A DNA stretch of 64,000 nucleotides from a virus: the IMG/VR virus record IMGVR_UViG_3300033571_013339, positions 1 to 64,000 of that record; one strand, given 5' to 3'. How positions within the stretch are numbered: position 1 is the stretch's first letter; the number at the start of each line of letters is the position of its first letter. The position numbers and the translations under genes are program-made. The notes below the pieces were generated by a model that did not search any database, was not told the origin of the DNA, and saw only the letters and a list, made by a program, of their open reading frames with translations. Shown here one piece after another: positions 6,068 through 58,918 of the stretch.

Positions 6068-6670
6068 TTACGAAGCCGGGTAAACGTAGTACCATGTAAC
6101 AGCGACTCTTTTGAATCCGGATGTTACAACTTGGCCTCGGTGAGGAAAACACCAACTCGACGGGAAGATCAGTGCATGGCCCGGTTTCGGTTTATAAACT
6201 TCGTCGATGAATTCGGTTCCGCCACCTTCAAAGTCAGAGGTGAGGTAAAGAACAACAGAAATCGTTCGATAAAAAGTGTTCTGCGCCCGGTCCCAATTCT
6301 GATCGTAATGGAATTTGTATTCCTGACCAGGCCCGTACTCAAGAATTTGAATGCCTTCGCGGTGAGATCGAGTTCCTGCAGCGCCAGGGGCGAGAGTATA
6401 GCTGACGAGCGAAGGGTGGATTCCCCCGAGGCGGTCTCGGTATTCAAGCAGAGCTGTATTTATAGCTTTCCCGACTAAGTCGGTGATCGCAGTTTCTTCT
6501 ACTAGGGTGAATCCTTCACTCGAGCGAAGAGAAGTGTCTACTCGAAAACTTTCACCTGAGAAAACAGTGTTCTTTAAGCGTAAATTCTCTTTACGGTCGC
6601 AAAATTGATTGACAACGCGCAACTCTTCTTTGCTCAGGGTTGGAACAACCTGAATAAGTGGGTTTTTCAT
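6068..6670 (-). CDS. 2-oxoglutarate/Fe(II)-dependent oxygenase, prolyl-4-hydroxylase-like
   Basis: 200 aa, the usual size of phage and bacterial P4H-type enzymes. The double-stranded beta-helix shows an iron triad at His121-x-Asp123 (KFHYD) and His177 (CFPHRG). Lys187/Arg188 (GFKRVAVTWYY) is placed to bind the 2-oxoglutarate carboxylate. The family hydroxylates protein side chains, typically proline. The gene lies in one unit with a collagen-like fibre gene (7149-8864) and close to two others (1-203, 220-1731), so their Gly-X-Pro repeats are the obvious candidate substrate. That link is inference. Confidence 0.85.
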   Translation of the reverse strand: MKNPLIQVVPTLSKEELRVVNQFCDRKENLRLKNTVFSGESFRVDTSLRSSEGFTLVEETAITDLVGKAINTALLEYRDRLGGIHPSLVSYTLAPGAAGTRSHREGIQILEYGPGQEYKFHYDQNWDRAQNTFYRTISVVLYLTSDFEGGGTEFIDEVYKPKPGHALIFPSSWCFPHRGQVVTSGFKRVAVTWYYVYPAS

Positions 6671-26095: not shown

Positions 26096-26302
26096 TTAAT
26101 CCCCCCTTGCCTTTTGGTAAGAGGTTAAGCCAGCTGGCGTGCTGATGTGCCCCGTAACTTGACACACCCAGCGTTGAGAATTAGTAATTGAAGCACACTT
26201 TTCGCTCCTTTTTGTTTTCTCCTCTGGGGACATAAGTGAAATGTTGTCCGAATTGTCCCCTCCGCCTCGTGACCTTGGGACTATGTGATGTTTGTGAATC
26301 AA
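26096..26302 (-). CDS. reduced HNH homing-endonuclease-like protein
   Basis: 68 aa. The first 20 residues (HKHHIVPRSRGGGDNSDN) are a good HNH opening, but the final His of the HNH is missing. The C-terminus RWVCQVTGHISTPAGLTSYQKARGD resembles the terminal motif of some phage homing endonucleases. This looks like an internal deletion derivative. The only in-frame start is TTG at 26302, overlapping the PhoH stop (TTGA), so translation would depend on coupling. Nuclease activity is doubtful. Confidence 0.55.
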   Translation of the reverse strand: MIHKHHIVPRSRGGGDNSDNISLMSPEEKTKRSEKCASITNSQRWVCQVTGHISTPAGLTSYQKARGD

Positions 26303-27120
26303 TCTTCATACCTATCGAGAATGTGGGCGATGACGGAGTTACGAACGATGTCCTCTTTCGAGAACTCTACGATCCCAACTTCCGACAGGTGGCGCAGTCG
26401 GTGAATAGCGTCGACCAAACCATTTTCCCTTCGAAACACTTCCATATCGGTCTGCTTCGTGTCTCCAATCAGAAGGATCTTCGAATCTTTGCCGACGCGA
26501 GTCAGGACGGTTTTGATTTGTGAAGGGAGGAAATTCTGAGCCTCATCAACAATGATGAAAGCCTCGTTGAGCGAGCGTCCTCGAATGTCTTCCAGGAGAA
26601 CAGGCTCGATAATTTTCTTGTTCAGCAGGTACTCACTTGCACCGTGCGATCTCATGATGCAGGGCAAGTTGTCAAGAACAGGCGCAATCAGGGGTGCGAT
26701 CTTCTCGGAAAGGTCTCCAGGCAGCGCTCCGCGCCCGCGCTGGAATTCAACACCCACGTCACTTCGAACGTAGTACACTTTGTTGAAATCGCCTGAGGCG
26801 ACACCATACAATCCGTAATGCAACGCAATCAGCGTTTTCCCGGTTCCGGCACAGCCATGGGCGAGAGTAACAGTGTTTTTCTTGAGGGAATTCCACAGAT
26901 CTTCTTGCCGCCAAGTCAGAAACTTGGGAGGCATGACATCCATTCCTTTGTGGTAGGATTGTTCTAGCATCTGGGCATTTTCAGCACGGCGAGCCTTGCG
27001 CTTTGTCTTTGAATCTAACATGTTTAAGGGAGTGATACAGTCGGTGGGTAGGTCATACACTTTGCTGCTTAACAGGATTACATCCTTATCACCCCCTTCA
27101 GAACGAATGGAACGAGTCAT
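26299..27120 (-). CDS. phoH: PhoH-like P-loop ATPase
   Basis: 273 aa from ATG 27120. A longer in-frame reading from 27198 would cross the promoter-like element and is rejected. Walker A is GCAGTGKT (89-96) and Walker B is FIIVDEAQN, followed by the family strand ILLIGDTKQTD. PhoH proteins are ATPases/helicase-like, widespread in marine phages and formerly tied to phosphate stress, with RNA metabolism suspected. GGGTAAAA lies 27 nt upstream. It is the first gene left of the plus-strand island. Confidence 0.9.
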   Translation of the reverse strand: MTRSIRSEGGDKDVILLSSKVYDLPTDCITPLNMLDSKTKRKARRAENAQMLEQSYHKGMDVMPPKFLTWRQEDLWNSLKKNTVTLAHGCAGTGKTLIALHYGLYGVASGDFNKVYYVRSDVGVEFQRGRGALPGDLSEKIAPLIAPVLDNLPCIMRSHGASEYLLNKKIIEPVLLEDIRGRSLNEAFIIVDEAQNFLPSQIKTVLTRVGKDSKILLIGDTKQTDMEVFRRENGLVDAIHRLRHLSEVGIVEFSKEDIVRNSVIAHILDRYED

Positions 27121-27147
27121 GGTTGGAAGGGCAACTCGTACAGTAAA

Positions 27148-27155
27148 TTTTACCC
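27148..27155 (-). promoter_or_regulatory. GGGTAAAA element (putative promoter), leftward arm of divergent region
   Basis: GGGTAAAA on the minus strand, 27 nt before the PhoH start at 27120. A plus-strand copy lies 24 nt to the right. Confidence 0.85.
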
Positions 27156-27179
27156 TACTCTCAACGAACACAGGCTGGT

Positions 27180-27187
27180 GGGTAAAA
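27180..27187 (+). promoter_or_regulatory. GGGTAAAA element (putative promoter), rightward arm of divergent region
   Basis: The only GGGTAAAA copy I found on the plus strand, 32 nt before the GTG start of the first plus-strand gene (27220). Confidence 0.85.
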
Positions 27188-27219
27188 TCGAAATACATTG
27201 GTCATTCACCCTTTGAGAT

Positions 27220-27672
27220 GTGACTGAAGATCAAACTACCGAGTACAGCTTACTCTTCGACGACGACTTGAAATCTGCGGTTGTCCAAACCCAAGCTGTA
27301 GAGTTATGGGTGAACAACAAGGTTTACAGCCTCAATCTTGCGAAAGTACGGGTTAACAAAGTCGTAATGGCGATTTTACACAATCCCACCAATACAGTTG
27401 TCGGAACGGTTACAGGGGATGCCCGGTACTCCCCGTACCTGAAGGGCACATACTACTATTTAGGGGTCTTTATTCTACCGAACCACGGTGATAGACCTAA
27501 AATTCTAGAAAGAACCTTCAAACTTTTGCGTGATTTGAATCGACCTTGCGTGAAAGGGGTGGCTGTTCTCCGAAAGAATGGTAAAATCTCGGACAAACTT
27601 CTAAACCGGTTTCAGTTTAAGCCCTCTCTCAAACTTGGTCTTTACTTCAGGGACTTTAGTGCAGCAGGTTAA
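27220..27672 (+). CDS. protein of unknown function, upstream of desaturase
   Basis: 150 aa starting at GTG 27220; the ATG two bases earlier meets an immediate stop. Alternating strands and one helix (KVVMAILHNPTNTVVGTVTGDARY ... YYYLGVFILPNHGDRPKILERTFKLLRDL) loosely recall a small acyltransferase-like alpha/beta fold, but no diagnostic motif is visible. It is co-oriented with the lipid desaturase, one base apart, so a related lipid or membrane role is conceivable. Not recognised. Confidence 0.65.
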   Translation: MTEDQTTEYSLLFDDDLKSAVVQTQAVELWVNNKVYSLNLAKVRVNKVVMAILHNPTNTVVGTVTGDARYSPYLKGTYYYLGVFILPNHGDRPKILERTFKLLRDLNRPCVKGVAVLRKNGKISDKLLNRFQFKPSLKLGLYFRDFSAAG

Positions 27673-27673
27673 G

Positions 27674-28363
27674 ATGAAATTGCAAAGAAGCGTCAGGCTG
27701 TACGCCACTCTCTACGCGCTAAGCCATATTACCTTTGGCGTGTATTCCTACGTGTTCGGCTACACCTATATGCTGGCTGCCTTGTTCGTGGGACTGCTCA
27801 GCTTCAACATCGCCTCGTATGCGTTTATGCATAGGGCGGTGGCCCACAATCAGTTTCAATTTTCACGCCGTATCAAGAAGTTTCTGTGCGATCTTTTCTC
27901 GATGTGCGGATTCGGAAGTCTTGCAGTGAGTTGCGCCGTTCATATTGAACATCACAAGCACACCGATACGACTCTAGACCCTCACGATTTTCGCAGGATA
28001 GGGCTCGTGAGAACCGTTTTCAAGCGTTGGGACGAAACATTCTACCCGCCGGTGAAATCCTACGTTAGGTATCTGCGAGATCCGGATATTTGCCTGCAGC
28101 ATCGAAATAATGCTAATTTTTTCCTACTTTCCTCTCTGGTGTTCCCCTTCATACCAGTGGTTTCTTTCTGGATGCTGAACCTCATCTTCATTGTGAATCA
28201 CTTAGGCGAGGGTGAAGGGGGCAGTGCTTTGAATCTTCCCTTGTTGTACCCCCTGATGTGGGGAGAAGAGTTTCATTCTGACCACCACCGTCACCCCGAA
28301 CGAAAAAAGATGCACAAATTCGATCTTATTTACTGGGCAGCTTCTTCACTGGAGCGAGTTTAA
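27674..28363 (+). CDS. membrane fatty-acid desaturase
   Basis: 229 aa from ATG 27674. The di-iron histidine boxes of membrane desaturases are present: HRAVAH (53-58), HIEHH (90-94) and HSDHH (201-205), with an additional N-H pair at 175-176. Hydrophobic segments lie around residues 10-50, 75-90 and 145-175. It would introduce a double bond into a membrane acyl chain in an O2-dependent reaction. Shorter than many bacterial desaturases but with all boxes kept. A host-derived auxiliary gene in a plus-strand island. Confidence 0.85.
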   Translation: MKLQRSVRLYATLYALSHITFGVYSYVFGYTYMLAALFVGLLSFNIASYAFMHRAVAHNQFQFSRRIKKFLCDLFSMCGFGSLAVSCAVHIEHHKHTDTTLDPHDFRRIGLVRTVFKRWDETFYPPVKSYVRYLRDPDICLQHRNNANFFLLSSLVFPFIPVVSFWMLNLIFIVNHLGEGEGGSALNLPLLYPLMWGEEFHSDHHRHPERKKMHKFDLIYWAASSLERV

Positions 28364-34336: not shown

Positions 34337-34591
34337 TCAGATGTCCTTACGAAACTGTGAGAATTTCGGTAAGTTTCGGGGATGGCGTTTGGGCGGAACG
34401 GGTGCAACCGGCGGAGAAATCGTTCGACCTGTCGGTTTCGGCTTCAAAGGTTCCTTTACCGTTTCAACTACTTCAACTGTTTCCGAAGGAGTTTCAACCG
34501 TTTCTTCCAAGCTAAATGTTGATTCGTCTTCCATAGTTTCAATTGTACTCGGTTCGATCTGCGAAGGTGTTTTGCGTCGTCTAGGGGCCAT
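34337..34591 (-). CDS. disordered Pro/Glu/Thr-rich small protein
   Basis: 84 aa. A basic start (MAPRRRKTPSQ), an acidic Thr/Glu/Val middle and a Pro-rich basic end (PPVAPVPPKRHPRNLPKFSQFRKD). No folded domain expected. First gene of the neck/terminase unit after GGGTAAAA. Possibly a linker or assembly factor; not recognised. Confidence 0.5.
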   Translation of the reverse strand: MAPRRRKTPSQIEPSTIETMEDESTFSLEETVETPSETVEVVETVKEPLKPKPTGRTISPPVAPVPPKRHPRNLPKFSQFRKDI

Positions 34592-34613: not shown

Positions 34614-34621
34614 TTTTACCC
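34614..34621 (-). promoter_or_regulatory. GGGTAAAA element (putative promoter)
   Basis: GGGTAAAA on the minus strand, 22 nt before ATG 34591. Its TAA is the stop codon of the 483-aa gene. It would drive the neck and terminase unit. Confidence 0.8.
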
Positions 34622-36067
34622 TGAAGTCACCAAGTCGAAAGTTTGAGCTGAGTTTTGGAAGCTAAGGGTAGGGGCAATTGTTGGAACATTCGATTCTGGA
34701 ACTATGCTCATGGACACACTTGTCGCGGTAATCGTGGGAGGGCCAATTACTGGCAGGGTGGTTGGGTTGATTTCACTGCGTGCGTAAAGACCGAAGCCCG
34801 GCGGGTTGTTAGCAAAGATTGGAGTTCCACCCGCAGTCAAGGGCTGAAGGAAGTCCAGAGAGGAAACGTATTTGTAAGCAGAGCCACCACCTCCCCCGCC
34901 GTATAGGCCAATTCCGCTTGGCGTAATAATCACACGCTGGTTTACCGTATCGAGACTCGCTGCGGTAGAGTAGGGACTTATTCCGCTCACCTGTGTGAAG
35001 AAACTCACTTCATTCAGGTTCCAGTCGTAGTCGATCAAATTCACAAGGCTTGGCCAGCCAGGCATTCCAAGGTCCGAGTAAAAGTTGACGTAACTGTTCC
35101 AAATATAGTAACCAGTGGGCGAGGGTCGCATAGATGTTGCCCAACCCGCGAAAGTTCTTGTTTCAGTTGGTTGGAAAAACTCGTCTAGGAGGTGAATTCT
35201 TCCGTTGCTACCTTCTAGAAGGATATAGCCCCCCGACTCAGGATGAAAAAGAATAGTGTATATAGAAATTGCACCAAGATCGACCGCTTGAACAACGTTT
35301 GTAAACGTTTCGTCTACCTCTACCAAAAAACGGTCGTAAGGAAGTCCATTTAGAATTCCAGCCAAAACCCAGTTTCCGTTCGGTTTTTGATCAGCGGCAA
35401 TAATCCTCCAAACGGGCAAACTGCCTACCGGTCGCGTGAAAGAGAACCGCTTCAGAAACGAGCCATTCGTAACGTCAATTAAATTGCAGAAGTGAGGTTG
35501 ATACTGCTGCAACTCCGAGACAAGCATCTGAGTTCTGGCATTATTCAGTGCACGAAGATCCCAATTTTGGTCGTAACTGCCGTCGAAGGCTTGACTGTAA
35601 ACCGTTTGACCGGAGGAGTTGAGGCAAATGAAGTGGTGGTTGCCGTTACTATCGTCTACGACAGTTAAAACTTTGTTGTCCGGGAGTGAGTAAACCGTTT
35701 GAGAAACCGCAACCGGACCCCATTCAAACTGAGCGTTGGGTGGCGTAATGGTCTTTGACCATTGCAGATTACCATAGATCGAGAATTTACTCAACTCTGA
35801 TCCTGTGCTGTTAGCAATGAAAGAGTAGATCTCTCCCCCAGGCCCAATCGCAGAGTTATGGCTGTTGACGTAACCCTCATCAACTGTGCTATAAGCCAGC
35901 CAACGATTTGTCGTCGGGGGAGGCGGGGGTGAAGGTGGTGCCGGAACCGTAAAGACTCGTTGAGGCCCCGGGACACCGAAGTCAGGTTTCTTCGCCGAAG
36001 GTCTTACCCAAATACCCTCGTTAATGTAAACTCCGGGCGCCTTGTCGGTATTCTCTTGTCTAGCCAT
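34616..36067 (-). CDS. beta-propeller-like virion protein with sheath-like N-terminal peptide
   Basis: 483 aa. N-terminus DKAPGVYINEGIWVRP closely matches the start of the tail sheath product (GAPGVYINERAG). A Pro-rich linker follows (APPSPPPPPTTN). Residues ~55-390 hold repeated four-stranded blades (GEIYSFIANSTGSELSKFS; NHHFICLNSSGQTVYSQAF; GGYILLEGSNGRIHLLDEF), suggesting a beta-propeller. The tail is Ser/Pro/Thr-rich. It may dock on the sheath or tube through the shared peptide and present the propeller outward. Confidence 0.6.
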   Translation of the reverse strand: MARQENTDKAPGVYINEGIWVRPSAKKPDFGVPGPQRVFTVPAPPSPPPPPTTNRWLAYSTVDEGYVNSHNSAIGPGGEIYSFIANSTGSELSKFSIYGNLQWSKTITPPNAQFEWGPVAVSQTVYSLPDNKVLTVVDDSNGNHHFICLNSSGQTVYSQAFDGSYDQNWDLRALNNARTQMLVSELQQYQPHFCNLIDVTNGSFLKRFSFTRPVGSLPVWRIIAADQKPNGNWVLAGILNGLPYDRFLVEVDETFTNVVQAVDLGAISIYTILFHPESGGYILLEGSNGRIHLLDEFFQPTETRTFAGWATSMRPSPTGYYIWNSYVNFYSDLGMPGWPSLVNLIDYDWNLNEVSFFTQVSGISPYSTAASLDTVNQRVIITPSGIGLYGGGGGGSAYKYVSSLDFLQPLTAGGTPIFANNPPGFGLYARSEINPTTLPVIGPPTITATSVSMSIVPESNVPTIAPTLSFQNSAQTFDLVTSG

Positions 36068-36090: not shown

Positions 36091-36098
36091 TTTTACCC
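36091..36098 (-). promoter_or_regulatory. GGGTAAAA element (putative promoter)
   Basis: GGGTAAAA on the minus strand, 23 nt before ATG 36067. Confidence 0.75.
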
Positions 36099-36114: not shown

Positions 36115-38751
36115 TCAGTCAAAGAAACCACTAGGGGGAGGACCACCTATAAGCCAATTTCCAGGCTGATCGGTATAACCTGTGATGTATGGGGGAGGAT
36201 CTGTTACTGGTCCGGTCCATGGGTAGTTTAAGCCGAAGAATGTGTAGTTCGGGTCGGCTAAGGTGGATATAAGGGGGATGTTTAGATGCCACATTTTCTT
36301 TCCTTGATTAGGGGGAACGGGCGGAATGGGGTCAAAAGTGAAAGCAGCAGCGACCCTTGTGTAACTAGCCTGTATAGAAACGTTTACAACACCCTCGCTA
36401 GTGTTTCCGGCGAGGTCTGTAACACGGAAGTGGAATGGTTCACTCACACCGGTGTAGTAAGGAGGGGTGTAAGGGCTGAGGTTAAGGACTATCGGGTTGG
36501 TTAAATCAACAGTGTACTCAAAATCACCGTTTGAGTCCAGGGTAAAGATACCGTAAGATCCAACAGAATCACTGATAAGCTCAAAAATTTGGTTACTTGG
36601 TCCCCCCGTACCTACAACGGGTGGCATGGAAACTACCGGAAGGGTTGGATCGGGCCCAGGGGTGTTAACCTCCCCTGTCAGCAGGTTTCCACCGATGGTT
36701 TCAAGAATGCTTCGAATATAGATATTCTGCTGTATTGCAACAGGTAGTATATCCTCGTAAATGGTTCCAACCACCGGGTTGGTCGTTACCGGCGTGTACC
36801 CGGAACCCGAAACCAAGGTAATTTCAACAGTTTCGCTGGATACGATCGAGGCGGCTGGGTCCGGGTCAATCGTAATTTGACCAGTGGTTTGCCCTGCAGG
36901 AATGAGAATGCTTCCGCTGGTTGGCGAGAAAGAAGCGGCGCCAGACTGAGTGTAGTCCGTTCCAAGAATCGCCGTCCCCCCAACGTTGAAATTAACAGCC
37001 AGCGGGTCAACAGTTGACCCGGTCCGCGTGAAGCTGAAAACAATGTTAGTTGCCCCGGTATTAACGACTGCGGTAGGCGAGGCAGTTAATGTGATTAGTG
37101 CTTCTGCCGGAGGAGGCGTTGGAGTGGTGGACCAGACGACGGTGCCGCCGGTGCATCCCCCCCACTTAACATTTATAAGCTCCACCCCTGTAACTGTTGC
37201 TTGTATCACCGGGCCGTAGGGGAACCCTGTATCTATGACATACCAACCATTATTCTCGAAGGGAGGGACAAGGTATGGTTGCACAGTGATTGGGTTGGCG
37301 TAGGGCTCTGCAGGAACAGCTGCGGGAAAGTCAATGTAAGGAGCGTTATTGTACGTGTTTGGAACCTCCAGGTACAGTCTGGTTGTGTAACAAGGACCGC
37401 CGGGAGGAGCATAAACTAAGCCCCATTTCTGGAGCGCAGCCTGACTTGGAGGCAGACACGCAGGTTCAGCATAAGGCGGGGAGCTCGGACTGACTTGTTG
37501 TGGTTCCATTCTATCTCCGTCAACGGTGTAACCCGACGTTACAACTGTGGTTCCAATAACCGCAGGTCGAAGCTCGAAGGGAGGATAGCCCGGAGAGAGA
37601 GTCTGGCCAATGGCATAGGAAGCATCCAGTTCTTGCTGAGTTGTTTGTGAGATGGAAATTTCCCAGCTTGCGCCCGTTGAAACACCCTCCGAACAAACGG
37701 GGGGAGTGTGAACATACATTTTACCTAAGGTCGATCCAGCAGGAATCGTGTTTAAAGAAATGTTCTGAGCCGCACACACAAACACGTAGTCCGGGCCATT
37801 CCCAATTCTTATGGGGCTCCAAATCACAGCACCTTGTGGTCCCCACGGCGGGCTAATCCAAGCTCCGGGGTTAGCTCCAGTATAACTAAGGTCTAGGAAA
37901 ACGTACCCAGGGTTCATCGGAAGGAAATAATCGAGACCCAAAGTTCCATTTAGGGGAGTCAGTGTGAGTGTGAAAAGGTTGTATTGACCTGCGATTAAGG
38001 GATCGCTACCCTCCGGCATAACAATGTCTACGATAGTGTAATCCGTCAAAGGTAGAGCGTATGGGGATGGACCTTCTGGTCTAAGTTCGACAGTAATCGG
38101 CGAGACGGGAGGGGGTGGGCAATCGTTGTATTGAATGGTCCAAGATTTGTCAAATAGATTATCGTAAGCGGCAGTGGCAAGAGCAGTCCACTCCCCGAAG
38201 CAGGCGTTGGTCCCTCCAGCAACACTACACGTACCGTTCACTACCCCGCTGGTGTCAAGGGAAACAAGAATATTCTCAATGCTTTGAGGTGAAAGTGCAC
38301 ACCCAAACCAGGCTCCAGCATAGTTTGATGCAGAGCAAGCGTTAAACATGTTGGGCGGAAATGTCTCAAGGCTGGTGCAGCCTTCCCAGGTGTTAGTAAA
38401 AGTTGTACCCGAATTAACAAAAATGAACGGAAAACTTGTTAAACTGCTGCAGTCTTTCCAGGTTCGGTCAAAAACAGTGGCCGAGCTTAGATCCAAAGCC
38501 CCAAAACTCGTGAGACTCGAACAACCCTCCCACGTCTGCACGAACTCGGTTGCGTCTCGCAACTGGTTGTATAGGTATAGCGTAGATATAGTTGCCATTG
38601 AAGAGCAATTAGCCCAAGTATAATTGAAATTAAGCCCTGAGCTGAAGTCCTTGGGCGGGAAGCTCTCTATAGAGGTGCAGCTCGCCCAACCGTAGGATAA
38701 ATCTACCAATCCGGCAGTGTCTGCATTAGGGTCACAGTTGAAGTTTGGCAT
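36115..38751 (-). CDS. BspA-type leucine-rich repeat protein with Calx-beta and cadherin-like domains
   Basis: 878 aa. Residues ~1-150 are ~24-residue repeats of the form F-x-x-T-W-x-x-C-S-S-L-T-S-F-P, the BspA/DUF285 LRR signature known from bacterial surface adhesins. A cohesin-like beta region, a Calx-beta domain (FSFTRTGSTVDPLAVNFNVGGTA ... ETVEITLVSG) and a cadherin/VCBS-like domain near the C-terminus (VSEPFHFRVTDLAGNTSEGVVNVS) follow. Very likely receptor-binding. One LRR unit occurs at the end of the adjacent upstream gene, 3 nt away. Confidence 0.7.
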   Translation of the reverse strand: MPNFNCDPNADTAGLVDLSYGWASCTSIESFPPKDFSSGLNFNYTWANCSSMATISTLYLYNQLRDATEFVQTWEGCSSLTSFGALDLSSATVFDRTWKDCSSLTSFPFIFVNSGTTFTNTWEGCTSLETFPPNMFNACSASNYAGAWFGCALSPQSIENILVSLDTSGVVNGTCSVAGGTNACFGEWTALATAAYDNLFDKSWTIQYNDCPPPPVSPITVELRPEGPSPYALPLTDYTIVDIVMPEGSDPLIAGQYNLFTLTLTPLNGTLGLDYFLPMNPGYVFLDLSYTGANPGAWISPPWGPQGAVIWSPIRIGNGPDYVFVCAAQNISLNTIPAGSTLGKMYVHTPPVCSEGVSTGASWEISISQTTQQELDASYAIGQTLSPGYPPFELRPAVIGTTVVTSGYTVDGDRMEPQQVSPSSPPYAEPACLPPSQAALQKWGLVYAPPGGPCYTTRLYLEVPNTYNNAPYIDFPAAVPAEPYANPITVQPYLVPPFENNGWYVIDTGFPYGPVIQATVTGVELINVKWGGCTGGTVVWSTTPTPPPAEALITLTASPTAVVNTGATNIVFSFTRTGSTVDPLAVNFNVGGTAILGTDYTQSGAASFSPTSGSILIPAGQTTGQITIDPDPAASIVSSETVEITLVSGSGYTPVTTNPVVGTIYEDILPVAIQQNIYIRSILETIGGNLLTGEVNTPGPDPTLPVVSMPPVVGTGGPSNQIFELISDSVGSYGIFTLDSNGDFEYTVDLTNPIVLNLSPYTPPYYTGVSEPFHFRVTDLAGNTSEGVVNVSIQASYTRVAAAFTFDPIPPVPPNQGKKMWHLNIPLISTLADPNYTFFGLNYPWTGPVTDPPPYITGYTDQPGNWLIGGPPPSGFFD

Positions 38752-38753
38752 GA

Positions 38754-41700
38754 CTACTCCGGGTTAGCTACGGGAAAGGAAGTTAGACTGCTGCAGTTTA
38801 ACCAAGTGGCTTCAAAGGTGGGCGAGTCTATAGGAGGCGGTGTCGGCAAGATTGTTACGGTGATTGGCTCTCCGGGTCCAGAAGGCTCGGCAGGGCAATC
38901 CGGTGTGATGTAAAGAGTTTGAGGTTGTGTTTCAGCAAATCTCCACGCTGCTTCCTGCTGAACGTCGAAGAAACCGTCCTCCGCAGCGGACGCATCGGCC
39001 ACAAAGTATGCGTAACCGATCTTGTAGTTGTTTGCATCTACATCGTAAGTTTTTGACGGATTGTCGCAGGTTGGGGGGAACTTGTAAATGCTTGCGTCCC
39101 AAACTGGCGCTTCAATTAACTCTACTGCCCCATCCAAAAGGTCATTCACATAGTACCCTGAAAGGAAACTGCATGCGTTGATGTTCAAGTAAACACCTTG
39201 CCAGTTACCGAAACCTTCTTTGGAGAAATCTACGAGTCGGTTGTGAAGAGGGTCGTACTCCACAAACTGCGCTTCCGTGAAATCGTCGTAGTCAATATCC
39301 ACGATCGGGCGAACCGAAGCATTTGTGTAGGACGCATCCACAAACGAGAAATCGTCGTACAGAACGGTAGAGTAGAAGTAAGGCTCAGAATACACATAGG
39401 TGTAGTCCGTTCTATCACCCCGGAGGGAAACTTCTTCGTAAATTTCCGGAAGGCTCGCAGGTGGCGGACAATCCATTCTCTCCGGCTCGATGTTGCTACC
39501 GAAGTAAGCGAAATCTTCGCAAACCAGGGCAGTCTTCTGCCACAGTGCTCCATTGCGACCGTAATCGAGAGGGAGACGAACGAAGAAACGTTGCCAGTTA
39601 TCAAGAGCTGGCCCGTTGTTGAGGTCCGCTACCAGCGGGTTCGGGTAAGTTCCCCGCGCAATCAAACTCTCTGAGTCTGAGCTTTGAAGATGCTGGGTCT
39701 TCCACAACCTTAGCGGGGTTTCAGCGTCGTAAACGTTGGGGGACATCTTGTAAATCACGCCGCTGAAAACCAACGACGAGATGTCCAGACGATACGAAGA
39801 GGTTAGTGAGTCGGAGATTTCAATCCGGGGGAATTGTGTTTTTCCTTGAAGGTTGAAAGCTCGGTATGTGAAACTGTAAGAACCCACTACTGTTGCGGTT
39901 TCGTAGGAAATGTTGTAGTCTGTTGTTACGAGGCTTTGCCCGTTCTCGAGCAAGTTCCCATCGCAATAGAAACGTATTGTACTAGGGTCGTAAGTGCTTG
40001 GCGGAGATGAAAGTGCCACGTTGTCATTCAAGGGGGTCCACCCGCTTTCAAGCAAAATCTGAGCATTACGTGCTCCTACGTTCGCGTCAGCGTAATCCCA
40101 CCACAGTTCGCCTTCCAGCGGACCATCATAAAGAGAACTGTCCGCAATAAACTTCAAGATTGAGTCTGGAAACAAGGTCCAGTCAAAGTTATTTTCTTCC
40201 TTGCACAGGATTGTTTGGTATTGCCCTGAGACCACAAACTCTAAATTGTTGACCGAGTAGTTTGAAGTGGACGGCGAAAGCCCATCTGAGTTGTAAACGT
40301 AGGTCGGCACATTTAACGGTATACCTTGGCTCGCCGCAGAGAAGTCGAACTCGTTCTGAAATAGAAAACGAATCGGAACCCAGTACTGCGTTCCGGGCTG
40401 AGGGTACAGGTACAAACTACCAGGACCAGGGAATCCCCCTTCAATGCCTAGAATGTTCGCCGAGTCGGTCAAACCTTGTATGTCAACAATGACGATGCAA
40501 GTCGTATTTTCTGGTACCTGGCCGAAGCCTGACAAAAAGGAATCGACATCCGGAAACACAAAGTCAGGGATCAACTCTTGTTCAGGTGCTTCTCGGTAGG
40601 TGACTTCCACCCAAAATGGGCAATCACCTTCTTGCTTTACTTGGACCGCGAGTTTTCCTGTGGAGCTGTTCCACCAAAGTTTTCCTGGCGGCAGATTACC
40701 TGGAATGCCCGCATCAACTTCAGCCCGCTGTGCATAAACCCGGTCTACCAGATCGTTGAACTCCAGACTTCTTTCAAGAGTGGGGAAATATAGGGACTTT
40801 TCTTCGTCGTACCCGTGAATGGAAAGACTGTCGAAAGCCAAGTTGAACGGCAGCGCACCGCCTTTGTTTCCCCACGCTCCACGGAAATTCTCAAGGCTGC
40901 AAGACCCTCCCCAATCAGACGGGTCAACCCAACTTTGAATCTTAACTTCCAGGCTATAGCCATCTGTCGACAGAAATGCGGTAACTCCTACAGAAGTCGG
41001 GGTCAGATTGGCCGGCAGTCTAAGCACCCAGCGCTCAATCGTTTCGTCGTACTCAGGGGCGATATCTACACTCAAAGAACTGCTGTACGACAGGAACACA
41101 GGTTTGTCGAACGCATACACAGATCCCGCGAACAAGATTGGGAAGAGGTAAGGGAAAAGTTCGCCGGTGTCGTAACTCGGGAACAAAATAAGTTTCCCAA
41201 TAGTTGGAGGCGGAACATCGAACAAAGTCGGACCATCAAACAAAGTCGCTGTGGGACTAAAGGATAGTTCTTCTTTGCAGTGGAAAGAGTTGTCTCCGGC
41301 GACTCCAATGCTCGGGCGAAGAAACGGTGCTGGTCTTGCACTAGGAACGTCAATTCTCAGCTGAACGTTGCTGTTGATCTTGGTGAAGAATGTGTCGTCT
41401 ACTTCCCCAAAGTTCAGAAGCATTCTGCCGGAAGTTTCCGAGAGCGACTGAATGGTGTAACTATCGGTGTCAAGGTATGCCGTCTGCCCTGCGGAAATTC
41501 GGTCGTCTCTTTCAATCTCAACGACTGCAACATTCGGTGAGGAAAAATCTTCAATATTGTCCCAAGTTCTGACAGAGAAGACACGAGGAAGAACGAAATT
41601 GTTGTATACTCCGAACGTTCCCCCCAGAAGTTGCCTTTTCTGAGAAACGGTTTCAGGGAGATTTGTCCAGTAGTTGCTTCCGCTCCAACCCAGCATTTGC

Positions 41701-41837: not shown

Positions 41838-43121
41838 TTAAGTTAGTTCCACACCGTAAAGTTCAAGAGACAGATATTCTTGGCTCATGCAGACGACCGG
41901 GTTCATCCACAAAACAGAATACCCTGAGAATTGTTCATAGAAGTCGATGAGTTCTTCATCGAAAGGCTTCGTCAACCAGTCCGCAACGGGCTTGTATTCG
42001 CGGTGAATGATTGGTCGAATATCCTGTATGTCTTGCAACAGATAGTCTGAGCCAACATCTATGAATGCAAGGTTGCAGTAGGTTACGGGAATTTCTTCCC
42101 CGTCAGTGTTTGTAACTGTGTTTGGAACAGCATTCTCAGGGTAGATTGAAAGCGCACAACGCGAAGAAGCTCCAGCTTTCTTCGTCATCTTGGTAACTAT
42201 CCCTGACACAGTGATCGTCTGAATTTTCATGTTCAGATCGGTGAAACCCACTCTCCACCCGGTTTGAAAACTAGGCGAAGGGATAAGAAACTCGAAGTAT
42301 TGACTAGTGTCGTCCAGACTCACAGAAGCTGTGACAACTTCTTGTGGACCGCTGCTCAGAACATAGCTCAACGTTGCGCTTCCAGAAAAGCTCGAACCTG
42401 ATGGGCACCGCAAAACAACCTTTGAAAACGCCGAAGGTAGGTCATCGCCACTAACCCACTCCAGGAAAGTGGAAGTGGGCTGAGTGGAAGACGGGAAGTA
42501 GCTGTCCTGGTTCGACCAAAAAGTGTCTGAGCTCAGGAAAGCGTTCAGAGCAGGGTATCTCCAACCGATAACCGAATCGGTGCTCGATGTGATCAGCAAC
42601 TTGGTTCCAGTTAACAAATAGTCGTTAACTTGGTAAAGATGTTCAACTGGGCTGTCGTCGTAGCTAAGCTGATACGCCACAAGATAGCGACCGCTGTCGA
42701 AGTCCAACTCCTGCAGATTGAGAATGGTTGGGGGGACTGCGATCGTCCCATACTTCCACACAACCTGACCCGACTTGACAATCAAGTTTTCAAAAGTTGC
42801 AGAAGCAACCACCTCAAGGGAAGTAGGTCCGAAGATACCTTCTCCCCACGGGATGAAAACATACCCTACATCTTGAACTGTGTCAAGTTGAATAGCAGTG
42901 TTTGACGCAGGGATTATGTCAAAGAAGTTGACTTGGTAGGTCTCACTTACAGCGGGCAAGCGTCTGTAAATCGGCCTTCCCCCTGGAATCCACTCGGTTT
43001 CCCTGGTTCTCAGGTTCTTAACCTCGATTGACTGATCAGACAAGGTGCTAATAGTCCTACCTTGCGTGCTCGTCTGAATGGTTTGAACCCCACCGTTAAT
43101 GGGAATAAGCTGTTGACTCAT
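41838..43121 (-). CDS. baseplate-associated structural protein
   Basis: 427 aa, beta-rich. Starts MSQQLIPINGGVQTIQTS and ends in a helical/aromatic stretch (WLTKPFDEELIDFYEQFSGYSVLWMNP). It lies between baseplate J (4-nt overlap) and the large LRR-tailed protein, so it probably bridges wedge and fibres. No known domain recognised. Confidence 0.55.
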   Translation of the reverse strand: MSQQLIPINGGVQTIQTSTQGRTISTLSDQSIEVKNLRTRETEWIPGGRPIYRRLPAVSETYQVNFFDIIPASNTAIQLDTVQDVGYVFIPWGEGIFGPTSLEVVASATFENLIVKSGQVVWKYGTIAVPPTILNLQELDFDSGRYLVAYQLSYDDSPVEHLYQVNDYLLTGTKLLITSSTDSVIGWRYPALNAFLSSDTFWSNQDSYFPSSTQPTSTFLEWVSGDDLPSAFSKVVLRCPSGSSFSGSATLSYVLSSGPQEVVTASVSLDDTSQYFEFLIPSPSFQTGWRVGFTDLNMKIQTITVSGIVTKMTKKAGASSRCALSIYPENAVPNTVTNTDGEEIPVTYCNLAFIDVGSDYLLQDIQDIRPIIHREYKPVADWLTKPFDEELIDFYEQFSGYSVLWMNPVVCMSQEYLSLELYGVELT

Positions 43122-46100
43122 AGCCCCATAGTCCCGTTTCTATAGTTCGGCGGCGAATAGGGGTAGGTTGTTCCAGTGAACCAGGAAAGCTGCGGAACTT
43201 CCGTCGAAGTGGAAGCATTCTCCCAAACATACAAGTAGGGAGCCGAAGCGTTACTGAACCTGCCACCATTTTTAGGGATTAACGTAATGCTTGCGATACC
43301 AAGTTTGATCGCCGAGATGTCCCGACCAAACTGAGATTTGATCTGCTCGTCGCAAGTGTAAGCATTCACGTACCGAAGAAGGTTACCTTCGTACTCTTCG
43401 ATTCTGGTTGTGTTGACGACAGTAGTGTTCGTCCAATCGGTAACGGTTGGCACTGGCGAGAAAGCTCGCATGACTCGATACAAGTTTCGACCATCTTCCG
43501 AAACAATCGTATCCTCGGAGTAGAGCGAGTAGTCCGGGTTGAAATAGGGAATGTACGGTAGAGTTAGGAGGGCGCTGTCAGCGACATCAGCCGAGGGCAC
43601 AAACACTTGGTTCTCAAAGTAGACTGAAAAGTCAAACAGCGGTGTTACGTTCGTTGTCGCAGTGTAGGAAAAAATCTCACTACCTTGTCTGAAGAATGTG
43701 GTGTCGCCCTTAAAGAACCGGAACATTCTCTGCGGAGTTTTAACCGTGCCGTTGTTAATAGACTCAGCAAGTGAAACTACCTGAGAAGGCGTGTAAGCCA
43801 GCGGTAAAACAAGGTTCTCATCCAGCAAATCGTTGATCAGAGTGCTGTCCGGCGTGAAGTACTGAGTTGCCACAAAATACTGCGGTGCTGACACACTCGA
43901 TTCTTTGTACTCCAGGTAGGTTCCCACCGGGAAACGGGGTTTGTACTTGTACACTGGCAAACCGAGGTCTGCATTTTGAACCACGATTTCTTGAATGATT
44001 CCGAGCTCAACAAGTGTGTCGAAGTATTCTTTGACCGCTAAGTCGTTTGGCTCGTACACAAATCCTTGCAAAACGTAGGCAAATTTGTTCACGCCACCCT
44101 TCAAAGGGTCCACGTAGTTGTAGTAAGGGTCTGCCACCGCATTCGGTCCGGATCCGATTTGAGGGGTGGTAACCCACGTTCCAGACAAATACGAGTTTCC
44201 GGGAACCAGCGAGTTGGGGACCACCGAACTTCCTAAAAGACCTGCGGAAAGTGCGCTTGTTGTGCTATTTGAGGGAGCCTGAAGGGTGAAGTTTTGATCA
44301 ACAACCCAAACCAAACTTCCGATTCTTGGGACGGTAACTGCTGTAACAGGGATGCTGAAACCAGCGCCAACTCCACTGTTGCCAAGGTTTGAGTCATCTG
44401 CTGTTAAAATCGACCCTGGCGTATAACCTTCACCTGGGAAGATAAGCGCCACGTCTGTCACAACGCCGCCGGAAACTGTGATGTTTGCTGTTGCTCCTAC
44501 GCCGAATCCGGTGGTGTTAACAAAAGGAACATTCGTATAATTTCCATCTGTGTACCCCAAACCAGGAGTAATTGTCCCTAGAGCGGAAATGGGACCGATC
44601 AAGAGTTCTTGGGGCGTTTCGGGAACGAATTGACCGTCGCCTGGAACATAGTCGTACTCTACTATCTCAGGGTCGTAAAAACTACCAAAACCGCTTACGT
44701 AGCTGTTTCCAATCACCCACGGTGAGTAGGTTTTCTCTCCGGATATCTTGCCTCCAGCCGCAATGAGAAGGGGAATTTCTGCTAAGGAGCCGATGTTGAT
44801 GTTGTCAAGGATCACACGGAGTTTTCCGTCGCCACCGCTCGCTGGACTCCAGTAAACAACGTCACCTTGGTTGTAACTTCCCGCTTGCAGAAGTTCAATT
44901 TGCCTCATGACCAGATTTCCGTAAATCGTCTGATCTTTCTTTTCGGCAGAGTACGGAGTGAAAGAGGTAAGGACGGGATAATAAGACGTTGTCGGAATCG
45001 TCTCCAGAACCAAGTCGTTTTGGTTCAGAAGTTGCTCAGATGGGTCAAAAGAGTAGACCTGCGTATAAAGCGCAGCGGAAGGTCCGAGTTGTGGCGGAGT
45101 GTTGTATGCCTTCGCGGTCACAATTCGCGGGTTAACGTACCGGGTGTCCGCGTCAAACGTTGCGTAGAAAGCGGAATCAACGTCGCTTACGCTCGGATCG
45201 GTAGAGGAAGGAAAAACGTTTCCAGGCTGAAGTAACTGGAAAAGCCTGTCCCGGAAGTTCAACGAGGAGTTCCGTAGATTCACTCCGAAAGAACTGTTGG
45301 CATCCACTTCCAGGGTAATGTCGTATTGAACCTGGCTAAGTGTTAGAGGATACAGGTGCCCCGTTGTTCCGATCGGAACAGAGAAGTTCACCACATTCTG
45401 ACCTCTGCTGAGTTGTTCCTCAGTCAGTTCAACACCGCCAGGACCAAGAACGAAGAATGATACTTGACCGCTTGGCAGAATGTAGTCGGTTAAATAATTG
45501 TACGAGAATTCAGACCCTCTGTTGGGTTGCACCGATGTTTGAGTCCCTACCCCGTAAAAGTCGATGAAGAAGTCCTGCCAATCTTGCGCGCTTACAGGGT
45601 TCTTTCGACGAATTAACGTGAAGAAACGTTCCTGAACTTCCTGGTAAGTTTCAACGTCCGATCCGCCGGTTGCGGGCTCGGGATTTATTGCGCTCAAACC
45701 CGCGACGTTTATCGCTGAAGAGCCGACGATCGAGTTCGCAGGCACGTTGTAAAGCGACCCGACAAACTCTGAGAACACCGGCACGTAAATAACCGTCTCT
45801 CCTGGCGAGAAAGTGTAATTCTCAGCAGTCAAGAAAGAATAAACTTGGCCGCCGGTGATGTTCGGGTCAGTTGTGAACGAAGAGCCGGAGGGAATTGTGA
45901 CGGGGCTGTTTGAAGGCGGTATTGTAAGTACAAGACGAGCGAGAGACGCAGTCCCAAGGCGTCTCATCGCACCCAGGAAAGGACCAATCCACTCAAGCAG
46001 AATCTTTTCTGGCAGCTGGTTCGCCCAAAAGAGAAACTCACCCTGCGCGAAAACCTGCCCTTCCAGCAAAGCAGCCAGAGGGTTTCCAGAGCTGAAGTCG

Positions 46101-46210
46101 TTTAACGTTTGGTTAGAGGCTTGATATACTCTTTGTGAAGCAGCTTGAACAAGCTCTGCTTCATTTCGAGGGTCAATCGAAACTGACGGTAATGGTGCGT
46201 ATCTAGGCAT
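43118..46210 (-). CDS. baseplate J-like protein (T4 gp6 / Mu gp47 / P2 J family)
   Basis: 1030 aa. The N-terminal ~300 residues follow the baseplate J pattern: a helical start, LVLTIPPSNSPVTIPSGSSFTT, the VPANSIVGSSAINVAGLSAINPEPATGGSDVETYQEVQERFF core and FIDFYGV. That part forms the baseplate inner ring. The remaining ~700 residues are a long extension with glycine-rich repeats (GVGATANITVSGGVVTDVALIFPGEGYTPG), also seen in the 752-aa fibre, so this J protein is about two to three times the usual size. Confidence 0.8.
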   Translation of the reverse strand: MPRYAPLPSVSIDPRNEAELVQAASQRVYQASNQTLNDFSSGNPLAALLEGQVFAQGEFLFWANQLPEKILLEWIGPFLGAMRRLGTASLARLVLTIPPSNSPVTIPSGSSFTTDPNITGGQVYSFLTAENYTFSPGETVIYVPVFSEFVGSLYNVPANSIVGSSAINVAGLSAINPEPATGGSDVETYQEVQERFFTLIRRKNPVSAQDWQDFFIDFYGVGTQTSVQPNRGSEFSYNYLTDYILPSGQVSFFVLGPGGVELTEEQLSRGQNVVNFSVPIGTTGHLYPLTLSQVQYDITLEVDANSSFGVNLRNSSLNFRDRLFQLLQPGNVFPSSTDPSVSDVDSAFYATFDADTRYVNPRIVTAKAYNTPPQLGPSAALYTQVYSFDPSEQLLNQNDLVLETIPTTSYYPVLTSFTPYSAEKKDQTIYGNLVMRQIELLQAGSYNQGDVVYWSPASGGDGKLRVILDNINIGSLAEIPLLIAAGGKISGEKTYSPWVIGNSYVSGFGSFYDPEIVEYDYVPGDGQFVPETPQELLIGPISALGTITPGLGYTDGNYTNVPFVNTTGFGVGATANITVSGGVVTDVALIFPGEGYTPGSILTADDSNLGNSGVGAGFSIPVTAVTVPRIGSLVWVVDQNFTLQAPSNSTTSALSAGLLGSSVVPNSLVPGNSYLSGTWVTTPQIGSGPNAVADPYYNYVDPLKGGVNKFAYVLQGFVYEPNDLAVKEYFDTLVELGIIQEIVVQNADLGLPVYKYKPRFPVGTYLEYKESSVSAPQYFVATQYFTPDSTLINDLLDENLVLPLAYTPSQVVSLAESINNGTVKTPQRMFRFFKGDTTFFRQGSEIFSYTATTNVTPLFDFSVYFENQVFVPSADVADSALLTLPYIPYFNPDYSLYSEDTIVSEDGRNLYRVMRAFSPVPTVTDWTNTTVVNTTRIEEYEGNLLRYVNAYTCDEQIKSQFGRDISAIKLGIASITLIPKNGGRFSNASAPYLYVWENASTSTEVPQLSWFTGTTYPYSPPNYRNGTMGL

Positions 46211-46819: not shown

Positions 46820-46827
46820 TTTTACCC
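46820..46827 (-). promoter_or_regulatory. GGGTAAAA element (putative promoter) directly after a terminator
   Basis: GGGTAAAA on the minus strand, 30 nt before ATG 46789, beginning 4 nt after the U tract of the terminator at 46831-46857. Transcription of the baseplate unit should therefore restart here. Confidence 0.85.
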
Positions 46828-54460: not shown

Positions 54461-54616
54461 TCGAGGCAGCTCGGGGAAGTTTTGCGAGATATAGTTTTCA
54501 AGTTTAGCCAGGATTCTCGAGTATTCGTCGTAGATCTTCTCGCTTGATGTTTGGCTCATGTAGTACCGACAAGCTGAGATTAGTCGGTAGATGTCTTTTT
54601 CTTGTAGAGAGTACAT
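54455..54616 (-). CDS. small helical protein, 53 aa
   Basis: ATG 54616 overlaps the upstream stop (TGATG), and TAA lies inside the GGGTAAAA element. The product begins MYSLQEKDIYRLISACRYYM, is helical (SEKIYDEYSRILAKLENYISQ) and ends NFPELPRG. It lies between the Gp25-like baseplate gene and the portal. Function unknown. Confidence 0.75.
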   Translation of the reverse strand: MYSLQEKDIYRLISACRYYMSQTSSEKIYDEYSRILAKLENYISQNFPELPRG

Positions 54617-54993
54617 CAGTTTGCCAGAGTAAACTGCATCGGTGGCTGGGGAACTCCGTTTACGGCGTACTGGATGAAAACGTGGTACACCCCGTCATCG
54701 CCCTGTGATTTCCAGTCCCCTGTTACGCTCAGGTCAGACAACCCTGAAACGTTTGCAGAAATTGATGCCTGCAGTTCAGAGTTGATTTGACCCGGATCCA
54801 GGACGTTCAGAACCTGATCTGCTATCCCGTAGTTTGCTCTCATAACCCGCTCGTAGTAACGGGTTTCAACTACGCTCCGAATTTGCTGCGTTATCAAAGC
54901 GTAGTCTACACTTGTCGCTAAATTCCCGTTGACGATAGTCAAAGGGTAAGCCAATCCTCGAATACTCGCTGCTAAAGGCTCGGTTACGCTCAT
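54616..54993 (-). CDS. Gp25-like baseplate wedge protein
   Basis: 125 aa, normal length for T4 gp25 / P2 W family. Core IRGLAYPLTIVNGNLATSVDYALITQQIRSVVETRYYERVMRANYGI contains the family pattern of an R-Y/L-P start, a helix and the conserved glutamate and arginine-rich helix that anchors the sheath initiator. It nucleates sheath assembly on the baseplate, consistent with its place in the sheath unit. Confidence 0.85.
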   Translation of the reverse strand: MSVTEPLAASIRGLAYPLTIVNGNLATSVDYALITQQIRSVVETRYYERVMRANYGIADQVLNVLDPGQINSELQASISANVSGLSDLSVTGDWKSQGDDGVYHVFIQYAVNGVPQPPMQFTLAN

Positions 54994-58200: not shown

Positions 58201-58918
58201 CGTTAGCGTCAAACGTAGCGGCAGCAATGCTTACGAAGGCATTCTCAGAGTTTGAGAGGGGGTCGATCGAAGTTACCAGACCGAAATCACGAACGTAGAC
58301 GGAGCTACGAACACTCGGGTTGCTCTCAATCGCCTCTGCGATCGCAATTGCGATAGCCGAAGAAATTCTGCGGTTGTTAACTTCGTCGCCAGGGATGTAG
58401 TCTACGGGAATTGTAACCGGAACACCCAGCCATTCGCCATCGGCGGTGTAACCTGTGGATCCATCACCTGCTACGAGGCGGTTTCCGTTGATTACAAGTT
58501 GTGCGTAAACAACGTCTCCAGCCTCGAAGTTCGAGGGAAGACCTGCGTTGCTCTGCTTGGTTCCGTTAGGAAGAATCTCAATCTCTACGATCTGATCAGG
58601 AGTGCCAACGCGAACAACGCGCAGATCACCAATCTGAGCATTCTGGAAAAACTCGTTAACGCAGTTGTAGCTCAGCAAGGGAATCCGGGCCTCAGGAACG
58701 TTTCCACCAACGAGGGCGAAATAGTCGTTCAGCGAAGTGATCGGAGTAGGTGTGTTGTAAGGAAAAACTGTAACCGGCACTGTTTCTTCGGTTTCCACCA
58801 GCATGTAAACAGTGCTAAAATTAGCAACGTCAGCGTTTGCGACAACACCGGCACGCTCATTGATGTATACACCAGGAGCTCCGGGGGTTGTTCCACCGCC
58901 AAGAGAAAATGTGGCCAT
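55286..58918 (-). CDS. tail sheath protein, unusually large
   Basis: 1210 aa from ATG 58918 (MATFSLGGGTTPGAPGVYINERAG). A TTG at 58963 has the better ribosome site (TAGGAG) and would add 15 residues. N-terminal arm, MLVETEETVPVTVFPYNTP handshake region, and C-terminal core (GGRTRVNTADAQQRLYQFVNTRVILNVVYGSLR; FNQIISVGN; NGIINAKVFVTPVPTLERIQIDLIRV) are typical of contractile sheaths. Length is nearly twice T4 gp18 because of a large central insertion (~350-950) likely exposed on the tail surface. Confidence 0.85.
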   Translation of the reverse strand: MATFSLGGGTTPGAPGVYINERAGVVANADVANFSTVYMLVETEETVPVTVFPYNTPTPITSLNDYFALVGGNVPEARIPLLSYNCVNEFFQNAQIGDLRVVRVGTPDQIVEIEILPNGTKQSNAGLPSNFEAGDVVYAQLVINGNRLVAGDGSTGYTADGEWLGVPVTIPVDYIPGDEVNNRRISSAIAIAIAEAIESNPSVRSSVYVRDFGLVTSIDPLSNSENAFVSIAAATFDANVSVVPLVLPVGAQYVMMQNVYDIQNIVGQQQNLERVPQDYIQCIATAFDGQQDQGYLITPTAYAQFDADGRAAVGAAAADHCANNNYKWMALADPGPFLVTDINKYSAFTPHEPAADLVTGNKYLVDNAMYEWVGTDVTYDKLTYQALIASPTAETAISQSRSATPVAAGEKVGLLDSATFEVDSTVDDTMLVLNVANYWPVSYQIQEVTFSNATGDILSTIGEDGTIFVIAPPYDLEATGDYSFNNVFFAYDAPNAVSVLDEVIAAGGSINLTTPANAINFGGATGTCDFTYVVPFYSLPQTINGQTSNLLQNITGAAQYVNTLHLPASLQDATANYRLNFVSRTILDPDTSVAGSTGAYTGTARVTCVAHGLTSGQKLYFTQSVKTNAGVNLFRATTKVSEALYYVQVIDADTFCLAESLTSYTASSFVTIPSGTTSFVSSPTIFYTKVLGGEATSATLAELSVIPFVRARKYGLNSGLIASEAAVATAAPAPAASNPDVSIFFNNSLTALGVGLISPFGENSTAGWLPELTLSAPGSPSTTLENWYCTPTVDQNFASQAFLVPSIDPIAGGDYEAATSATLGVLDTATLYVTSTGLAVSDTGVDIQAAVAKLVGVYFNVTVAPAGAVGPDGVTEVAVGDRIAVTYNGTAYDWVVIPAGGDLSVAGQPCYGSQVGLNFTPEATPPSALWRFDPITSTEIISDAIRGVGFNGVPQAEFIEAGVDNVNRLYNDSQRYFQPFGFIAYYGPYIENASGQWIPPSPYVTGIALRRYRAEGYQFPPAGVKYQLADAVAAQIPINSAQQNLLNPDGCNAIRTLPGYPTSAVFVWGGRTRVNTADAQQRLYQFVNTRVILNVVYGSLRNAFDSQIFNVIDGFGVAFNQIISVGNSVLNQLYSRGALFGARPSDAFQVICDARINPPASLENGIINAKVFVTPVPTLERIQIDLIRVAVGQMQNELNAQGLGTNNTGF

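Follow-up and report, generated by a model that had tools for sequence, protein, structure and literature searches.

The window, by which we mean the whole analysed stretch of 64,000 nucleotides, comes from a virus record of 70,585 bp. Its minus strand encodes a tail sheath protein (P0002) that starts with MATFSLGGGTTPGAPGVYINERAG... and an unrelated-looking protein (P0001) whose translation reads MARQENTDKAPGVYINEGIWVRPSAKKPDFG...PAPPSPPPPP... and which consists of an N-terminal tag, a Pro-rich linker, a 'propeller-like' part and a C-terminal tail. The features of the locus are collected in Table 1. Translation bears out the initial annotation in that the open reading frame and a matching peptide of the sheath both exist, and in that the shared octapeptide, APGVYINE, is N-terminal in both proteins. 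Searches of Pfam, PHROGs and NCBIfam relate P0001 to no sheath family, and it has none of the sheath core or C-terminal domains (PF04984/PF17482, PHROG 23/17610); what it has in common with sheaths is a (G)APGxYxNE near the N-terminus, seen in the octapeptide and in profile matches. Family searches of P0001 also return no gp25-type wedge match; the candidate gp25-like sheath initiator of this genome is presumably the ORF at 54616..54993.

P0001 belongs to the tail and baseplate gene region, where it lies downstream of baseplate J in a variable zone between P0004 and an 84-aa gene. These two immediate neighbours have no family match, and a tail role of P0004 is suggested by its position. The accessory ORF P0003 begins with a repeat region, followed from residue 549 (position 37107) by a part whose homolog in a related contig (L004) is tagged; it has a VCBS match (TIGR01965) at residues 726-759. 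At 38749-38756, the end of P0004 and the start of P0003 fall inside a Trp/Cys/Leu repeat of the same type and meet in a stop-NN-ATG geometry. The same geometry joins a 170-aa tagged ORF to a 1012-aa repeat ORF in the related contig (L004:4352-4359; region 74% identical in DNA), and such a junction suggests that the tagged and the untagged partner are translated in a coupled manner. Elsewhere in the window, 220-1731 and 7149-8864 encode proteins with collagen-like GPP/GPT repeats, possibly fibres, and the products of 6068-6670, 26299-27198 and 27635-28363 resemble what we take to be a 2OG-Fe(II) oxygenase, PhoH and a fatty-acid desaturase, respectively.

Table 1. Positions of the tagged gene, the sheath gene and associated features in the window.
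Feature	Coordinates	Strand	Remarks
P0007	33531..34334	-	weakly similar to baseplate OB-fold / hub families; downstream flank, conserved
84-aa gene	34337..34591	-	closes the variable zone
GGGTAAAA element	34614..34621	-	right border of insertion; upstream of 84-aa gene
P0001, tagged ORF, 483 aa	34616..36067	-	start ATG 36067
P0001 residues 54-430	34778..35908	-	possible beta-propeller (impression only)
Pro-rich linker of P0001, residues 42-53	35909..35944	-	PAPPSPPPPPTT
N-terminal tag, residues 1-44 of P0001	35936..36067	-	
APGVYINE in tag, residues 10-17 of P0001	36017..36040	-	
GGGTAAAA element	36091..36098	-	upstream of tagged ORF; left border of insertion relative to L151
P0003, upstream accessory ORF, 878 aa	36115..38751	-	
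P0004	38754..41837	-	no family match; last conserved gene in relatives before the variable zone
P0006, baseplate J / wedge protein	43118..46210	-	family matches
ORF	54616..54993	-	weak matches to baseplate wedge families
P0002, tail sheath protein, 1210 aa	55286..58918	-	from likely ATG; PHROG and PDB matches
APGVYINE of sheath N-tail, residues 14-21	58856..58879	-	

The part of P0001 behind the tag had been described as a Pro-rich linker and a propeller. The linker is evident and marks where homology to differing downstream modules starts or stops; for the propeller, family, solved-sequence and repeat tests neither support nor exclude the claim, and the fold is a guess from the impression that residues 54-430 give. 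Seven possible blade anchors, chosen by eye, lie 44-55 aa apart. In a leave-one-out test with repeat HMMs, the score of one of the seven repeats was reached or exceeded by fewer than 10 of the 500 shuffles (one repeat was unscored), and overall the HMMs did not beat shuffles. Alignment of one half of the body to the other with hhalign has a probability of 0.4%, nothing credible was found in Pfam/PHROG family, solved-structure, NCBIfam or plasmid searches, and the AlphaFold model of P0001, built on a two-sequence alignment, has a pLDDT of 28.7.

The sister contigs L003 and L004 from IMG/VR, identical to each other over 10,239 nt, correspond to the window with flanks 97.7 and 98.6% identical. 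Two further tagged ORFs are present in this haplotype, both starting with the 44-aa tag (89% and 84% protein identity to that of the window). The first encodes 381 aa, and its body, which looks Calx-beta-like by impression, corresponds to the C-terminal portion of P0003 in the window; the second encodes 170 aa with a body of Ig-like impression. Conversely, residues 54-430 of P0001 have a homolog, 91% identical in DNA, in the C-terminal part of L004's 1012-aa ORF: the homolog of window residues 54-479 is untagged in L003/L004 and forms the end of this repeat protein. The comparison of the two arrangements therefore reveals one N-terminus with three bodies, two of which stand behind a different N-terminus in the other haplotype, and tag and module meet at Pro-rich linkers or next to them. 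Unrelated C-terminal modules behind a single conserved N-terminus are the pattern of modular adhesins, and that the tag is a portable N-terminal module is well supported.

The tag is found in only two haplotypes. In a third relative (G049), whose P0005 and P0007 are 99-100% identical to those of the window, a tag profile search of the record did not find it. In all, nine records apart from G001/G002 contain both genes at the ends of the zone, P0005 and P0007, and the tag is absent from every one of them; we therefore regard it as accessory. In six of the nine (L153, L154 and L156-L159) the repeat ORF is missing too, and P0004 is directly followed by a gene like the 84-aa gene. Since the presence of the tag and of the repeat ORF varies across relatives, this part of the tail gene region is a site of variable insertion. 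Wider searches with the tag profile yielded 220 pattern stretches in viral contigs, of which the two confirmed are the known contigs, and 44 stretches in species genomes, none confirmed. Among named phages, the tag search gave three matches with E-values of 7-9 only, and full-length P0001 found none. In all of these searches, the records nearest the window's genome are possibly absent.

The tagged ORF of the window lies between two copies of GGGTAAAA, where L151 / G049 have a single copy. The window contains 21 copies of this element against 2.0 expected, 20 on the minus strand and one on the plus strand (another example is at 46820-46827); of the minus-strand copies, 15 out of 20 are located 30-60 nt upstream of a start codon in a list of 55 starts. 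The element is probably a phage promoter or processing element. The tag copies differ by dS of 0.23-0.47 with dN/dS of 0.19-0.25, the first 160 module codons have dS 0.60 and dN/dS 0.09, and the sheath genes of the window and G001 have dS 0.11 and dN/dS 0.115. The tag copies are under purifying selection. In the window, the spacer upstream of the tag is B-like and the second half of the tag mainly A-like, and a run of 23 nt at the octapeptide is the same in all three copies. The pattern resembles recombination within the tag, by a mechanism that we can only propose; informative sites are few in the 5' part of the tag, and exceptions occur on both sides of the mosaic. The residues K9-W20 and P35-P44 are all invariant in the tag, i.e. 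the octapeptide is no better conserved than other stretches.

The sheath of the window matches the tail sheaths of PHROG 17610 (E 1.5e-46) and is homologous to gp9 of phage A-1(L) (PDB 8kee_A, E 7.6e-41; 3.4e-49 with the family profile). Its PGVY aligns with PGAY, residues 13-16 of gp9, without gaps through PGxY, and the N-terminal stretch of this alignment has a weak score of 0.8 and 9.8 bits. The closest named phage is Synechococcus phage S-CBWM1 (Aokuangvirus), with 46.9% over 99% of P0002 for the sheath and 47.5% over 90% for baseplate J, which makes a cyanobacterial host likely. The S-CBWM1 sheath N-terminus contains GAPGTYVNER; neither the tag profile nor the sheath N-terminus profile found a tag in its 139,069-bp record. 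In the AlphaFold model of a relative's sheath (L047:664-4254), the N-tail is poor (pLDDT about 31-33), as is the C-terminal core. A long central region of this model, about residues 350-950 with pLDDT around 90, lies between the parts that can be aligned to A-1(L). With the model as query, the only Foldseek matches at E <0.001 were A-1(L) sheath chains.

How typical the octapeptide is of such sheaths was assessed in two ways. In 2.9 million IMG/VR contigs, the DNA pattern of APGVY[IV]NE occurs in 109 stretches, which by inspection fall into 101 sheath N-termini of one clade, two tag-bearing stretches and six unrelated ones; the clade sheaths read MATFSLG...GAPGVYINE or MATISFGGAPGVYINE. Because this sample is biased by the motif, sheaths were also gathered by a C-terminal profile, and the best 80 of 174 confirmed stretches were considered, 20 of which are without the N-terminus. 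In this set, 54 of the 60 readable N-termini contain APGVYINE exactly, and the remaining six have APGVFINE (three), APGVFLNE, APGVYIEE and APGVYVNE; the octapeptide is thus strongly conserved in the sampled sheath clade. A relaxed motif had 88 matches, and the reversed motif one, in 234 loci (1.98 Mb, six frames, duplicates removed). The 88 matches comprise 78 sheath N-termini (77 flagged by script and that of S-CBWM1), three tag ORFs and seven others; the forward count is a biased sample, because most of the loci were retrieved via the motif or the sheath, and six of the seven others likewise lie in loci retrieved via the motif. Non-sheath occurrences include Asn/Gly/Tyr-rich repeat proteins in L054, L093 and L107, which have CAPGVYVNEQE[VI]SYYFENQ near the C-terminus, and a 373-aa protein (L062:3287-4408) whose N-terminus consists of two tandem copies of RSYIVAPGVY[LV]NET. 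The latter was considered as a relative of the tag and, on inspection of its sequence, judged unrelated.

Profile comparisons link the tag and the sheath in both directions. With hhalign, the tag profile aligns to the sheath profile N-terminus to N-terminus (E 3.7e-5, probability 71%), residues 4-31 lying without gaps on sheath columns 9-36; past the octapeptide, the similarity is marginal against shuffles (p about 0.04). Searched against 50 records behind the compared loci, the tag profile has strong matches (E about 1e-35) only to the tags of G001/G002 and picks up the sheath N-terminus of 43 records (E 2.5e-5 to 0.013). Two records gave unrelated matches only and five none; among these five, G019 and S-CBWM1 do have such sheaths, which the profile missed. 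The profile of the sheath N-terminus, searched against 44 records (those 50 and the window's own, minus G005, G015, G018, G026, G027, G029 and G043), recovers 44/44 sheaths and otherwise only five tag copies (E 4.6e-4 to 2.6e-3).

At the DNA level, six of the eight octapeptide codons differ between the tag and the sheath of the window, all synonymously; the two therefore share the peptide, not the DNA, and this divergence rules out a recent copy from the sheath gene of this genome. The initial annotation had spoken of a sheath peptide grafted onto P0001: the peptide match stands, and an origin of its DNA in the genome's own sheath is doubtful. Compared with 152 sheath copies, the octapeptide codons of the tag agree at 16 to 23 of 24 nt, mostly at 18 to 20. 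Since a single copy agrees at 23 of 24 nt, an old transfer from another phage's sheath into the tag may have taken place.

We propose, tentatively for the explanation as a whole, that the first 44 residues are a portable virion-anchoring tag which imitates the sheath N-terminal tail and is swapped between adhesin-like modules. A tagged protein would then consist of the tag, a Pro-rich linker and an interchangeable module, and recombination would exchange the modules, its sites being the tag itself, the Pro-rich linkers and the flanking GGGTAAAA elements. That the tag serves as a virion anchor is likely; that its partner is the N-tail pocket of the sheath is a conjecture by analogy to which we give somewhat less than even weight. 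According to PMC10966104, the N-tail of A-1(L) gp9 (PDB 8KEE) spans M1-I27, contains PGAY near the N-terminus and is held by domain II of a neighboring sheath subunit and by the sheath initiator, which has a domain-II-like fold and takes up the N-tails of the first ring. Similarly, the N-terminal arm of E217 gp31 contributes one strand to an intermolecular four-stranded sheet of its neighbor (PMC10329688). The claim that sheath N-terminal arms link subunits thus agrees with these solved relatives. Given the homology to gp9 and the aligned PGxY in its N-tail, we infer that a tag offering this strand could occupy the corresponding pocket: PGVYINE would most likely add as a beta-strand to the pocket that normally takes a neighbor's N-tail, either in domain II or in the domain-II-like initiator. 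Docking would most plausibly be at one end of the sheath, because the pockets inside the lattice are already filled; alternatively, the tagged protein might compete for these occupied pockets instead of using the sheath end.

The earlier suggestion that the propeller plugs into the sheath via the peptide is hence upheld in part: the peptide is shared, N-terminal, near-invariant in the sampled sheaths and present on three modules, and the docking itself would follow by analogy. Presence in the virion, sheath binding, the position on the tail, a role in adsorption and the mode of recombination are all parts that we infer. A further-reaching version would make the detachable copy of the sheath arm a universal plug, by which any module could be hung on end-exposed N-tail pockets or could cap the sheath, and would add tail decorations that are swappable independently of the baseplate fibres; we consider this version, with its addition, rather doubtful.

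The strongest alternative accepts the portable anchor, but assigns it to another tail component, e.g. P0004 or a fibre adaptor, and explains the likeness to the sheath by convergence or common descent. The tagged genes indeed come directly after P0004 in the tail region, and GIW.RPS and PQRVFTVPAP of the tag are equally conserved while having no clear sheath counterpart. On the other hand, the tag shares its octapeptide exactly with the segment of the sheath N-tail that is under the strongest constraint, in a comparable N-terminal place, and the reciprocal profile matches between tag and sheath N-terminus are less easily reconciled with another partner; we see this alternative as possible, though on the doubtful side. 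Unlikely is a tag that acts mainly as a DNA recombination handle, its conserved 5' ends allowing module swaps and its sheath resemblance having no structural role. The mosaic copies, the 23-nt identical run at the octapeptide and the GGGTAAAA borders would fit a handle, whereas the dN/dS of the tag and the six codons in which its octapeptide differs from the sheath of this genome would not. It is more improbable still that the tag is a relic, an inert leader left after an adhesin gene had captured the sheath gene 5' end of a divergent phage in front of it: the N-terminal position, a Phe that follows the Tyr by 16 residues as it does in most sheaths and the one sheath copy with nearly all of the octapeptide nucleotides point in this direction, but three copies of low dN/dS on different modules speak against it, and searches of viral contigs, species genomes and named phages turned up no sheath that continues with the tag's downstream sequence.

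That a short PG-turn/beta-strand peptide is similar merely by chance is very improbable: the six unrelated IMG/VR stretches (L025, L054, L062, L093, L105 and L107) show that the peptide can arise elsewhere, but they stand against the far more numerous sheaths and the two tag-bearing stretches, five searched records of the six lack such a sheath (the records may be fragments), and the octapeptide is unique in the window. There, 62 non-overlapping ORFs of at least 80 aa (20,373 aa) have 13 8-mers common to different ORFs: collagen-like repeats account for seven, a single pair of paralogous domains for four and the repeats spanning P0003/P0004 for one, which leaves APGVYINE as the sole shared 8-mer with neither a repeat nor a paralogous domain as explanation.

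The proposed anchor that imitates the sheath N-tail can be compared with several known systems. It differs from A-1(L) gp9 and E217 gp31 in that the peptide heads a protein without a detectable sheath core domain. Modular receptor-binding proteins, such as those of Klebsiella phages (PMC8262889), likewise combine one N-terminus with various C-terminal modules; here, in contrast, the anchor is a short peptide resembling a sheath arm plus a Pro-rich linker, and it occurs twice in one genome. The A-1(L) initiator gp30 and terminator gp8 engage the sheath ends through the inter-ring interface, which a hairpin of the terminator disrupts (PMC10966104); these proteins are acceptor or capping folds, whereas the tag would be a donor strand. 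Among the papers listed from open-licence PMC, none describes a peptide of the sheath-arm type on a protein other than a sheath, and the available part of PMC9230969 contains nothing on the APGVYINE peptide. We class the system with the modular phage adhesins that share an anchor, as a variant whose new part would be the anchor imitating the sheath arm.

Even without a sheath partner, several proteins of one phage genome share an N-terminal module, with joints at Pro-rich linkers. If the sheath is indeed the partner, contractile tails would have a second docking standard at the level of a peptide, the sheath arm, besides the joints between fibres and baseplate. This could explain how sheaths acquire their decoration with accessory domains, and it would provide a natural short tag for protein display on contractile tails.
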